From the NCBI GenBank assembly GCA_003242115.1, contig QBMP01000283.1, positions 1 through 5,777 of the forward strand: DNA of 5,777 nt, written 5' to 3'. Under the pieces are notes generated by a model that saw nothing but the letters and a program-made list of their open reading frames with translations, did no database searches and was not told the DNA's origin. How positions within the stretch are numbered: position 1 is the first letter of the stretch; each line of letters starts with the position of its first letter. Below are positions 1 to 4,944 of this stretch, piece by piece. A program made the translations under genes and the position numbers. The stretch is from Phormidesmis priestleyi (GTDB taxonomy: Bacteria > Cyanobacteriota > Cyanobacteriia > Phormidesmidales > Phormidesmidaceae).

Positions 1-479
1 CCACCACACAGCAGAGTGCCGAATAGCAGGATGTGCGTCAGGGTGAGGCGCGATTGCTTCAGTCGCTCGATGCTCTGCTGCTGCTGGCCGTCGCTGTTGC
101 GCAGGAAGGCCAGGGCGTTGCGTTGGCCTTCTAGCTGGCTTTCAATTGCCCGCAGGCTATCGCTGAGTTCGCCTAGCTGCTGGCTGTGCAGGTCGTCGGC
201 ACTCGATAGCCGTTCGACTTGGCTGACGGTACTTCTGAGCGCTTCTTTGAGTTTGTCGAAGCGGCGGTCTGTATGTTCAAGGCCATCGGTGAGGGCTTCG
301 ACGCTGGTGGCTAGGCGGGTCACTTTGACTCTGACTTTGGCCTGTTCTTCAGTCAGTTCGGCCAGCTCGGCCAGTTCGCTCAGGCTTACTTCTCTGGGTT
401 CTGTAGTCGGTGAAACGACAGGTTGAGAGGTGGTGGCAGAACCGAATAGTTCTTGATTTAGGTCGCGTCGATTACTCAT
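1..479 (-). CDS. Coiled-coil protein with C-terminal membrane helix (partial, runs off left edge)
   Basis: Not recognised as a named family. The reading frame runs from ATG at 479 to the window edge without a stop, 159 codons, so the true C-terminus lies outside. The start MSNRRDLNQELFGS is preceded by GAGGG with a 7-nt gap to the ATG. Residues 1-30 are polar and probably disordered. Residues about 31-145 are rich in Leu, Glu, Gln, Arg and Ser with heptad-like Leu/Val spacing (SELAELAEL, VTRLATSVEAL, RFDKLKEAL, LGELSDSLRAIESQLEG) and contain a QQQQ run, so a long coiled coil is predicted. From residue about 146 a hydrophobic stretch begins (LTLTHILLFGTLLCG), consistent with a membrane helix cut by the edge. 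The start overlaps the end of the upstream 53-aa gene by 8 nt, suggesting translational coupling. A membrane-anchored rod, such as a sensor, spacer or tether, is inferred from architecture only. Confidence 0.8.
   Translation of the reverse strand, partial: MSNRRDLNQELFGSATTSQPVVSPTTEPREVSLSELAELAELTEEQAKVRVKVTRLATSVEALTDGLEHTDRRFDKLKEALRSTVSQVERLSSADDLHSQQLGELSDSLRAIESQLEGQRNALAFLRNSDGQQQQSIERLKQSRLTLTHILLFGTLLCG
354..380. repeat. Three tandem 9-bp units inside the coiled-coil gene
   Basis: Three near-identical 9-mers, cagttcggc, cagctcggc and cagttcgct, lie head to tail. On the minus strand they encode the SELAELAEL segment at the start of the coiled coil. This looks like simple in-frame duplication of a short coding unit. 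Confidence 0.55.
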
Positions 480-633
480 CGAATAGCCCTCTGAGGGTGT
501 GGCTGACGGCGCTGCTGCGGTCTTGGGCGTCCAGTAACGGGTCTAGCCAGCGGGCGGTGCGCCAGCCGGTGTAGGTGCCGCTGCCAAACATCAACACGCT
601 CAGCGAGGACAGTAGAAAAAGGCGGAGGATCAT
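472..633 (-). CDS. 53-aa single-pass membrane protein
   Basis: Unrecognised small protein, 53 residues from ATG 633 to TAA 472. Support for it being real: GGAG sits 7 nt upstream of the ATG, and its stop overlaps the start of the downstream coiled-coil gene by 8 nt. The N-terminus MILRLFLLSSLSVLMFGSGTY is one positive charge followed by a hydrophobic stretch (residues 5-17), fitting an N-terminal signal-anchor or membrane helix. No Cys is present, so it is not a lipoprotein. The rest (TGWRTARWLDPLLDAQDRSS and a short tail ending LRGLFDE) is amphipathic, with two Trp and alternating Arg/Asp. It lies between two other membrane-associated reading frames, so it probably works with them. Function unknown. 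Confidence 0.68.
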   Translation of the reverse strand: MILRLFLLSSLSVLMFGSGTYTGWRTARWLDPLLDAQDRSSAVSHTLRGLFDE

Positions 634-654: not shown

Positions 655-778
655 TTCGAGGACTGCCGCGAACAGGGCTGAAAATGCGTTACAGGTGGGG
701 CGATTCAGCCGAGGACATCTGAATCGGCTGAGGACAGTTCGAGGGCATCCGCGAACAGCGCGAGGACAGGCCGAGGAC
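655..778. repeat. Degenerate GTCCTCG / CGAGGAC repeat cluster
   Basis: The heptamer CGAGGAC occurs at 657-663, 710-716, 761-767 and 772-778, with a TGAGGAC variant at 729-735. A longer imperfect direct repeat pairs 655-675 with 738-758 (18 of 21 bases match, 83 bp apart; both end in ccgcgaacag). Within the cluster, CAGCCGA (706-712) and TCGGCTG (724-730) form a perfect 7-bp inverted repeat with an 11-nt loop, overlapping a second inverted pair GATTCA (702-707)/TGAATC (720-725). On the minus strand the repeats encode the Ser/Cys/Pro-rich tail after the transmembrane helix of the shifted frame. They may also structure the mRNA upstream of the 53-aa gene. Confidence 0.5.
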
Positions 779-976
779 GGTGGCGATCAGGGTGAGCGTG
801 AGCAGTATGCAGCTAGCGGCGAGTAAAAATGTGGTGGCTTTCTGCCATGCCGTTGATGCAAGCGTTACGCGGATGGTGGGGAGGCTGCGGGCAGTGCCGT
901 ATTCGTCGAACCAAGCACGGGCAGTAGGGTGATCGGCTGCGGCTTCGAGGCTGATAGCTGTTGGCGCAGCTGTGAG
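689..976 (-). CDS. Start-less -1 frame extension encoding a transmembrane helix (candidate frameshift product with 865-1245)
   Basis: This frame has 95 sense codons and a TAA at 691-689, but no ATG, GTG or TTG between the upstream in-frame TGA (just above 1090) and the end of the membrane segment. The translation looks like protein: a soluble part with acidic and aromatic residues (SLEAAADHPTARAWFDEYGT), then a strong hydrophobic helix at extension residues about 50-70 (FLLAASCILLTLTLIATVLG), then a Ser/Pro/Cys tail. It is in the -1 frame relative to the gene starting at 1245, and the two meet at an in-frame C CCT TTC heptamer. A -1 slip there would give about a 185-aa fusion: 90 residues of the upstream protein plus these 95. 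Alternatives are a genuine frameshift mutation or a one-base sequence error. Confidence is moderate that the frame is translated, lower that it is programmed. Confidence 0.5.
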   Translation of the reverse strand, partial: LTAAPTAISLEAAADHPTARAWFDEYGTARSLPTIRVTLASTAWQKATTFLLAASCILLTLTLIATVLGLSSRCSRMPSNCPQPIQMSSAESPHL

Positions 977-1245
977 AAAGGGTTCTTGGCGTTCGCGGCC
1001 CCCTCGTTGAAGCCTTGCAGGAAGGCAGTGAATGCCTGCTGGTTGACGTATTCGGCGCTCTGTTGACCGATGGCGTAGGCATCGGCGCTCACGTCAGCAG
1101 CTAGCTGTTGGGTGACGGCGACGACTTCCGATTGGACGGCGCTGGCGGTGTTGAGCGCTTGTGGGTTGGGAGCTTGTGACGATTGCGTTTGAGTCTTTGT
1201 CTGTGAATTAGGCTGGGCTGATTTACGCGGATCTTTGTTGGGCAT
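865..1245 (-). CDS. Gln/Ala/Ser-rich small protein (zero-frame product)
   Basis: Unrecognised 126-aa protein. Two ATGs are possible, at 1251 and 1245. GGAG (1256-1253) is only 1 nt from the first but 7 nt from the second, so I choose 1245 (MPNKDPRKSAQPNSQT). Residues 1-40 are polar, Gln/Ser/Thr/Pro-rich and probably disordered. Residues about 38-86 (QSEVVAVTQQLAADVSADAY and onward to FLQGFNEGAANAK) look helical and amphipathic. Beyond the C CCT TTC heptamer the zero-frame tail of about 35 residues has no acidic or aromatic residue and is Pro/Ala/Ser-rich, in contrast to the -1 frame, which encodes a membrane helix. The start overlaps the end of the upstream gene (1223) by 23 nt. It could be a short isoform or an artefact of a broken frame. 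Confidence 0.72.
   Translation of the reverse strand: MPNKDPRKSAQPNSQTKTQTQSSQAPNPQALNTASAVQSEVVAVTQQLAADVSADAYAIGQQSAEYVNQQAFTAFLQGFNEGAANAKNPFSQLRQQLSASKPQPITLLPVLGSTNTALPAASPPSA
936..982 (-). promoter_or_regulatory. Candidate -1 ribosomal frameshift signal
   Basis: On the minus strand, positions 982-976 read CCCTTTC, which in the frame of the upstream gene is split as C CCT TTC and so fits the X XXY YYZ slippery consensus. After a 5-nt spacer (975-971), GCTGCG at 970-965 can pair with CGCAGC at 941-936, a 6-bp GC-rich stem. A competing 5-bp hairpin, AGCTG/CAGCT, lies in the same place. A purine-rich GAGGGGG (1005-999) lies 16 nt upstream of the heptamer and could act as an internal Shine-Dalgarno-like stimulator, though this is farther than in the best-known case, dnaX. 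The functional role is inferred. Confidence 0.4.
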
Positions 1246-1543
1246 GGCCATACTCCTGATTTAAGAATTGGGCGGTGGTTCTGCCTTGGCTGAGCGCTTC
1301 TAGGTAGCGTCCTAGCAGTTGCAGATCTGACAAGGCGTAACAGCCACTGGCGTCGGGATGGATGCCGATACGATTTCGCCAAGTGCGTAGAGTGGCAGTT
1401 TTGACGGCCTCTCCTTTGAGTAGGGCGGCAAATTGACGCACCTGAAACGGGGTGATCCCTTCCGCGTCTAGGTCACTCAGGATCTCGACTTGGCGAGGGT
1501 CAGAGGTTTCTGAAATGCAGTTAAAACAGAATGATACGGCCAC
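1223..1543 (-). CDS. Predicted small DNA-binding protein (helix-turn-helix-like)
   Basis: A 106-aa protein that begins the minus-strand cluster. I place the start at GTG 1543 because GGAGGAG (1559-1553) precedes it by 9 nt. An in-frame GTG at 1576 would add 11 residues but would put that strong site inside the gene. The N-terminus has an FCFNC pair of cysteines. The middle (SDLDAEGITPFQVRQFAALLKG) and the C-terminal part (TLRTWRNRIGIHPDASGCY, then ALSDLQLLGRYLEALSQGRT) resemble a winged or MerR-like helix-turn-helix with a Trp-Arg recognition segment. Fold assignment is by eye. Its position next to the divergent control region suggests a regulator of this cluster or of its own promoter. The end overlaps the next gene's start by 23 nt. 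Confidence 0.7.
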   Translation of the reverse strand: MAVSFCFNCISETSDPRQVEILSDLDAEGITPFQVRQFAALLKGEAVKTATLRTWRNRIGIHPDASGCYALSDLQLLGRYLEALSQGRTTAQFLNQEYGHAQQRSA

Positions 1544-1552
1544 GGTTTTGCT

Positions 1553-1559
1553 CTCCTCC
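1553..1559 (-). promoter_or_regulatory. Strong ribosome binding site deciding the GTG 1543 start
   Basis: GGAGGAG on the minus strand, 9 nt from GTG 1543. It is the longest anti-Shine-Dalgarno match in the minus-strand cluster and argues against the upstream GTG at 1576. Confidence 0.6.
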
Positions 1560-1582
1560 AAGGCGCTGATAATCACAAATCG

Positions 1583-4284: not shown

Positions 4285-4299
4285 CTGTGACTTTCACAG
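4285..4299. promoter_or_regulatory. Palindrome covering the antitoxin start codon
   Basis: CTGTGA-ctt-TCACAG is a perfect 6-bp inverted repeat with a 3-nt centre, and the GTG start (4287-4289) lies within its left arm. It may be the operator bound by the Phd/YefM-type antitoxin, or an mRNA hairpin that limits initiation. Confidence 0.42.
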
Positions 4300-4631
4300 T
4301 AGACAACATTCGATCGCTGACTGAGTTTCGTCGCCATACCAAGGACTACGTTGGCAAGCTACGCGAATCAAATTTGCCTTTAGTGCTCACCGTCAATGGA
4401 GAAGCCGCTCTTGTCGTTCAAAACGCACAGGCTTTTCAGGACGTCCAAACCCGACTTCAGCAGGCAGAAGCAGAACTTCAGAAACTGAAATTGGAGGCGC
4501 TTACTCACGATATTCAAGTCGGCATCGACCAGCTAGACGCTGGGGAGTACACAACCTACACAGAGGAAACTGCCTCAACGTTAGTTGATCGAATAAAGGC
4601 AAAGGGACGCGCACAAAAAGCGAACGCATAG
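4287..4631 (+). CDS. Type II antitoxin, Phd/YefM family
   Basis: A 114-aa antitoxin. Residues 4-55 show the Phd/YefM N-terminal DNA-binding fold: VDNIRSLTEFRRHTKDYVGKL, then LPLVLTVNGEAALVVQNAQAFQDV, in which the strand-turn-strand LTVNGEAALVV is characteristic. A Gln/Glu/Leu helix (RLQQAEAELQKLKLEAL, 56-72) leads to the C-terminal half (73-114), the part that in this family wraps the toxin. GTG start chosen: GAGG lies 8 nt upstream and no ATG is near. It should neutralise the downstream ParE-like toxin (gap 7 nt) and repress its own operon with it; the palindrome over its start is a candidate site. It acts in the cytoplasm. Confidence 0.88.
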   Translation: MTFTVDNIRSLTEFRRHTKDYVGKLRESNLPLVLTVNGEAALVVQNAQAFQDVQTRLQQAEAELQKLKLEALTHDIQVGIDQLDAGEYTTYTEETASTLVDRIKAKGRAQKANA

Positions 4632-4638
4632 GTTAAGA

Positions 4639-4944
4639 ATGCAGAACTTCCGTCTTTCACCTGCCGCTGAATCGGATCTCACCGATATCTGGACATACAG
4701 AGCTGACTCTAGTGAGGAACGAGCCGATGAGTTAATCGAACAGCTGGTGAAACAGTTTATGATGCTGACTACTTTTCCAGAAGCTGGGCGCAAACGTCCT
4801 GAAGTGAAAAAGGGAATCAGAAGCTTCGTTGCAGAGCGTCATGTCATCTTCTACAGGACGCTCAACCAAGGTATCGAGATCGTTCGGGTTCTTTATGGGA
4901 CACGAGATATCGACAAAATATTCTCAGACGATTCTTCTAGTTGA
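4639..4944 (+). CDS. Type II toxin, RelE/ParE family
   Basis: A 101-aa toxin of the RelE/ParE superfamily. It shows the usual pattern: N-terminal strand FRLSPAAESDLTDIWTY (4-20), a helical pair (EERADELIEQLVKQFMMLTTFP, 26-47), RKRPEVKKGIRSF (51-63), then the core strands ERHVIFYRTLNQGIEIVRVL (66-85) and YGTRDIDKIF (86-95). The FYR and RVLYGTRD segments are typical of ParE-like proteins, which poison DNA gyrase; RelE-type mRNA cleavage cannot be excluded from sequence. It follows the antitoxin by 7 nt with only a weak AGG upstream, consistent with coupled, lower translation. Length is normal and the frame intact, so it is probably active and serves plasmid maintenance. Confidence 0.88.
   Translation: MQNFRLSPAAESDLTDIWTYRADSSEERADELIEQLVKQFMMLTTFPEAGRKRPEVKKGIRSFVAERHVIFYRTLNQGIEIVRVLYGTRDIDKIFSDDSSS

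Follow-up and report, generated by a model that had tools for sequence, protein, structure and literature searches.

A putative programmed −1 frameshift that would append a predicted membrane helix to a small, probably soluble protein encoded on a plasmid-like contig of Phormidesmis priestleyi

The window analyzed here, 5,777 nucleotides in length, is the whole of contig C203 of a Phormidesmis priestleyi genome. Its plus strand encodes a ribbon-helix-helix protein, another that weakly matches a phage primase, a toxin-antitoxin pair (Phd-like/ParE) and ParA, a gene content that resembles a plasmid backbone. The toxin-antitoxin pair occupies positions 4287-4944 and consists of a Phd-like antitoxin, whose match lies below the Pfam cut-off, and a ParE toxin; among open reading frames of at least 90 aa, a 276-aa gene takes its place between matching flanking genes in cf. 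Phormidesmis sp. LEGE 11477 (L009). The minus strand carries four closely spaced genes, A (1576..1223), B (1245..865), C (633..472) and D (479..3). Gene A encodes 117 aa, has no family match above the cut-off, and shares its last 23 nt with the beginning of gene B; the two genes are likely to be translationally coupled. Gene C encodes 53 aa with a hydrophobic N-terminal segment and has a 54-aa counterpart in Phormidesmis sp. RL_2_1 (L008), and the start of a similar reading is present in the DNA of LEGE 11477. The 3′ end of gene D is lost at the contig end, and its coiled-coil-like product has a hydrophobic C-terminal segment and matches, all below the Pfam cut-off, of the coiled-coil type. 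No promoter- or terminator-like sites were found between positions 600 and 1800, and no Rfam matches were found within the window.

Gene B is read in its zero frame from an ATG at 1245 to a TAA ending at 865 and yields a predicted soluble product of 126 aa. Within the family, three of 63 genomes encode this protein, that of the window being one of the three, and a class-wide search recovered the gene in the same three of 388 genomes. The two relatives for which DNA is available are RL_2_1 (G056) and LEGE 11477 (G057), whose zero-frame proteins are 84% and 74% identical to that of the window, respectively. A search for further DNA relatives returned no records in the plasmid collection, no viral contigs, and only two loci in genome contigs, both already known. 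In the protein database, 136 zero-frame relatives were found at E <= 0.001, and among the 120 listed, all except P0114 are 104-127 aa long. The zero-frame alignment comprises 128 sequences including the window's own, i.e., 126 besides the latter and its 98% cluster P0003. Neither the zero-frame protein nor P0114 has a Pfam or NCBIfam match above the cut-off (sub-cut-off matches are at E 0.013 or weaker), and gene B proteins have no match in PHROGs at E 0.01. One homologue, P0110, stops directly after G112, so the tail of the short form may be dispensable.

A second reading lies under the 3′ part of gene B. In the −1 frame, 95 codons follow the putative slip and end at a TAA (691-689), giving a C-terminal extension at 982..689 on the minus strand; both frames are open over 982..868. 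The open reading frames and translations bear out the earlier note, which had described these two frames, and its observation that the −1 frame has no start codon of its own also holds: from the upstream stop to past the predicted helix the window contains no ATG, GTG or TTG, the first of these codons, an ATG, lying 234 nt after the start of the slippery heptamer. The extension is encoded in the same three of the 63 family genomes as the zero-frame protein, with 75% identity in RL_2_1 and 73% in LEGE 11477. The transmembrane segment that the earlier note suspected here is also predicted: helix FLLAASCILLTLTLIATVL is encoded at 829..773 on the minus strand, as judged from hydropathy and from the model of P0114. 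The best 19-mer of the window's −1 frame has a Kyte-Doolittle mean of 2.51, as compared with about 1.0 in the zero frame, and when the −1-only DNA is shuffled base by base 2000 times, a value of 2.0 is reached in 0.25% of cases. A 19-residue segment with a hydropathy of 2.24-2.94 is present in seven of the eight sequences that carry the −1 part, namely the window, L008, L009, P0123, P0124, P0125 and P0114; P0126 was excluded because it is cut. In an alignment of six sequences, a Cys in the helix and the tail CSR..S.CP.P...SSAE are invariant.

Since gene callers would miss an extension devoid of a start codon, its near-absence from protein databases is expected. A query with the −1 frame returned only four matches, of which two are marked partial, one has an internal start, and the fourth, P0126, has an upstream frame change and a truncated end. 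P0114 contains the zero-frame and −1 parts fused in a single frame; used as a query, it has 139 matches, and of the 120 listed, none besides P0114 itself exceeds 66% coverage. Its AlphaFold model is of low confidence overall (mean pLDDT 62.6, pTM 0.24) and contains a long helix at residues 27-77, a short one at 83-91, and one at 124-152. Over this last helix, the block means of pLDDT for residues 121-150 are 75, 95 and 92, the two higher values belonging to residues 131-150. Under the end of the −1 frame, positions 705-731 of the window form an inverted repeat, TCAGCCGA-N11-TCGGCTGA, which is kept in L008 and L009 with its spacing unaltered, surrounded by GAGGACA-type direct repeats (654-793) and with an RNA fold z of −2.5. 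It is possibly a DNA- or RNA-level site, and the stem-loop and DNA repeats may account for part of the conservation of the −1 frame there.

The two frames meet at a heptamer, C CCT TTC (982-976, minus strand), which lies in the zero-frame phase as noted earlier and is the only X_XXY_YYZ sequence in the 126-codon open reading frame of the window. CCCTTTC is present in the same phase in all three DNAs and is the sole X_XXY_YYZ common to their possible shift regions, RL_2_1 having an additional, overlapping AAACCCT one codon earlier. In LEGE 11477, a −1-frame TAG stands directly 5′ of the CCC, so the shift region begins exactly at the heptamer; from there to the W codon, its only two Z_ZZN sites both lie inside the heptamer. 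The frame offset is −1 in all three DNAs, the zero-frame stop follows 115 nt after the start of the heptamer in each of them, and the 30 nt from CCCTTTC onward are identical. At the protein level, Pro is found in 128 of 128 sequences and Phe in 127, preceded by N in 69 and S in 59; the exception, P0039, reads NPY and is the one sequence that would lack the heptamer. A heptamer of this form arises in 7-10% of shuffles of 24 codons; the motif alone is therefore weak, and its conservation and position carry the case. For E. coli, Sharma et al. 2014 (PMC4066793) list C_CC.U_UU.C among the patterns with high-level −1 frameshifting, and H_HH.U_UU.Y among the most efficient motifs; these efficiencies pertain to E. 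coli and not to cyanobacteria. Such efficiency, as given there, would fit tRNA re-pairing without a strong stimulator.

Two stimulatory elements had been suggested by the earlier note, and neither is supported. When the 57-nt piece is folded, the 6-bp GC stem (970-965 with 941-936) is predicted for the window and for RL_2_1; in the window's 83-nt piece and in LEGE 11477, a 5-bp AGCUG/CAGCU hairpin is predicted instead, and in LEGE 11477 the long stem is one pair short. With this pair lost, covariation absent and the predicted folds unexceptional (z −0.7 to −1.4), the GC stem is not supported as a stimulator; of the elements whose conservation the earlier note proposed to check, the heptamer and spacer are kept in all three DNAs and the GC stem does not persist unaltered. 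The upstream GAGGGGG (1005-999), separated from the heptamer by 16 nt, codes for part of an almost invariant NEG; it therefore carries little weight as a Shine-Dalgarno-like signal. A candidate 3′ hairpin, AGCUG-CGCCAA-CAGCU (971..956, minus strand), begins 4 nt after the heptamer and is invariant in the three DNAs, which offer no covariation within it.

The DNA-level comparison of selection rests on three sequences, and since the sequences, here and in the protein alignment, share ancestry, the p-values overstate independence. Suppression of synonymous change, which the earlier note proposed as a check, is evident directly after the heptamer, where the three-way comparison finds a synonymous change in one of 12 conserved codons, the upstream figure being 22 of 47 (one-sided p 0.013); it fades once the stretch is extended to codon 108 (4 of 18, p 0.06). 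Between the zero-frame stop and the end of the helix, the similarity of the −1 frame exceeds that obtained with rearranged substitutions in all three pairs (p 0.0005-0.0025), and the other two frames exceed it in none. The same test is weaker in the C-terminal tail, giving p 0.007, 0.17 and 0.01 for the −1 frame and 0.03 for another frame in one pair. Over the whole −1-only region, dN/dS is 0.40-0.62 in the −1 frame and 0.52-0.78 in one other frame, which leaves the −1 frame undistinguished by this measure.

Upstream of the zero-frame stop, the protein alignment itself carries a trace of the −1 frame. In columns 112-125, second-base changes make up 20.5 of 28 single-step variant types (0.73), as against 22.7 of 64 upstream (0.35), a skew with a one-sided Fisher p of 0.0017 (128 zero-frame sequences, proteins only). 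The variants in question are S/L, T/M, N/S, T/M, A/V/E and P/L/R, together with A/D/E/G/V at 120, and most of them are silent in the −1 frame (WFDEYGTAR). Since the second base of the zero frame is the wobble base of the −1 frame, this skew indicates that selection sees the −1 frame in the tail. The second-base share shows no excess in columns 103-111 (0.40) and is only suggestive in columns 91-102 (0.60, p 0.08). At position 120, 127 of 127 sequences have A, D, E, G or V, i.e., GNN, which matches the demand of the −1-frame CGN Arg codon, and directly before G112, 128 of 128 have a residue for which a codon ending in T exists, a requirement of the −1-frame Trp. All but one (P0032) of the 127 complete tails are compatible with WFDEYG[T/S]AR, the T/S tolerance having been set after the data were seen; between 2 and 126 of 128 sequences pass in upstream control windows, the high values occurring where the zero frame hardly varies. 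In view of this spread, compatibility is taken as no more than supporting evidence, and greater weight is given to the base-position skew. In codons 103-108, it is the zero frame and not the −1 frame that is conserved. In our reading of these sequences, the zero frame would be kept for its own sake to about L108 and the −1 frame from about W onward, the stretch between them probably serving as a linker in the long form.

The −1 part might instead be an overlapping gene in its own right, with its start within the zero-frame gene or at the end of it, for example through termination-reinitiation at the stop or at a rare start codon. The zero-frame stop of LEGE 11477 does overlap a −1-frame GTG (GTGA, offset 114), and P0125 begins, by alignment, at the Leu of LPTVRV. 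However, the window and RL_2_1 read GTAA at that place and contain no ATG, GTG or TTG between the upstream stop and the helix, on which grounds a separate start was rejected for both; moreover, an ATC at offset 27, common to the three DNAs, is replaced by Leu in P0123 and P0124. The selection on WFDEYGTAR also sits upstream of the zero-frame stop, and P0114 is a fusion of the two parts, such that a separate gene is considered very unlikely. An alternative we hold to be very unlikely is a programmed −1 shift elsewhere in the overlap, at codons 108-111, with both products following the zero frame over codons 91-108. Conservation alone permits such a later shift, since the zero frame is conserved through L108, changes in codons 103-108 are of the zero-frame type, and P0114 is joined after codon 108; yet no X_XXY_YYZ or Z_ZZN site exists at codons 108-111 in the three DNAs, the stretch 91-108 varies in length and sequence among homologues, and synonymous changes become scarcer immediately 3′ of the heptamer. 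That an ancestral fusion gene was broken by a frameshift mutation or sequence error and is decaying in this lineage is most improbable: P0114, the only single-frame form among the 120 homologues listed and the only continuous reading of the kind that the earlier note thought would speak against a programmed shift, is a single-member cluster that may itself carry an indel, and the break is seen in each of three separate assemblies and, going by protein length, in 119 of 120 listed homologues, while the −1 frame is still under selection. A local error or pseudogene is rejected in view of this conserved break, which persists in both relatives with DNA.

We therefore return to a programmed −1 slip at C_CCU_UUC (982-976), reaching a conserved, start-free −1 frame with a predicted helix, as the very probable explanation of the comparative evidence, in keeping with the earlier proposal of a soluble 126-aa form and a membrane form of about 185 aa. 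In the proposed mechanism, the two tRNAs would re-pair in tandem, tRNA-Pro exchanging CCU for CCC and tRNA-Phe exchanging UUC for UUU. Translation would then pass from ...N-P-F-L-T-A-A... to WFDEYGTAR, the helix and a short tail, a product of 90 + 95 = 185 aa. Ribosomes that do not slip would stop at 865 and release the predicted soluble 126-aa form, and those that slip would make a form predicted to be anchored in the membrane. More broadly, it seems reasonably likely that a widespread cyanobacterial plasmid gene family uses C_CCU_UUC frameshifting as a soluble/membrane switch, in which the ribosome sets the anchored fraction of a small helical protein through a shared dual-coded stretch, each frame being conserved in a different part, and in which the anchor is unannotated for want of a start codon. 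If so, 126 protein-database homologues, recorded as short, would be only half-described, and bacteria would offer a case of frameshifting that adds, and does not remove, a membrane anchor. Gene B would also be a small and experimentally tractable system in which to study C_CCU_UUC slippage in cyanobacteria.

Among known systems, the G/GT tail chaperones of phage lambda depend on a −1 shift by which a small protein is continued in a second frame, as proposed for gene B; unlike that of gene B, the lambda extension is soluble, and it serves phage morphogenesis. In E. coli copA, according to PMC5009743, a −1 frameshift truncates a membrane pump, leaving a putative chaperone of 70 aa; as proposed for gene B, one bacterial gene gives a soluble and a membrane form by −1 frameshifting, but the copA shift removes the membrane part, whereas that of gene B would add a helix. 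The same paper describes csoS2 of alpha-carboxysomes, likewise a gene of carbon-fixing bacteria that yields two forms by −1 frameshifting; its shifted form, with three residues from the −1 frame, is the shorter one, in contrast to that of gene B, which would be the longer. In arterivirus nsp2TF, the C-terminal region reached by frameshifting carries its own transmembrane segment, but, according to PMC5009743 and PMC7971519, the shift is −2, the system is viral, and the segment is an alternative transmembrane region, not an added anchor. Searches of the open-licence PMC literature, consisting mostly of titles and the starts of abstracts, gave, among the papers listed, no report of frameshifting in the gene B family and no anchor-adding shift in bacteria, and none of the listed items that combine CCCUUUC with frameshift concerned bacterial frameshifting by title. 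Passages of PMC3711429, a survey of prokaryotic frame transitions, likewise gave nothing on this family.

Downstream of gene B, the operon continues in LEGE 11477 with genes D, E (181 aa), F (98 aa, hydrophobic) and G (582 aa). Gene G contains a P-loop-like motif, recognized by eye, and has a weak AAA match in Pfam and no solved-structure match among PDB sequences. Matches to gene G at 25-42% identity occur in 20 records of the plasmid collection, all from cyanobacteria, e.g., Nostoc and Tolypothrix, and gene D has no match in that collection; two of the G-matching plasmids (L012 and L013) encode mostly hypothetical proteins. The operon may have a role in plasmid transfer or maintenance at the membrane. 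Judging by operon position, the soluble/anchored pair may set the fraction of a soluble plasmid protein that is tethered to the membrane, and this tethering is envisaged beside the coiled-coil-like and ATPase-like proteins encoded downstream. Over genes D to G (L009:9733-12857), no Pfam or NCBIfam family was found above the curated cut-off. The LEGE 11477 contig that bears the ParA gene also carries, at L009:14662-15753, a photosystem II reaction-centre gene (Photo_RC, E 5.7e-92), which we take to be of the D1 type.
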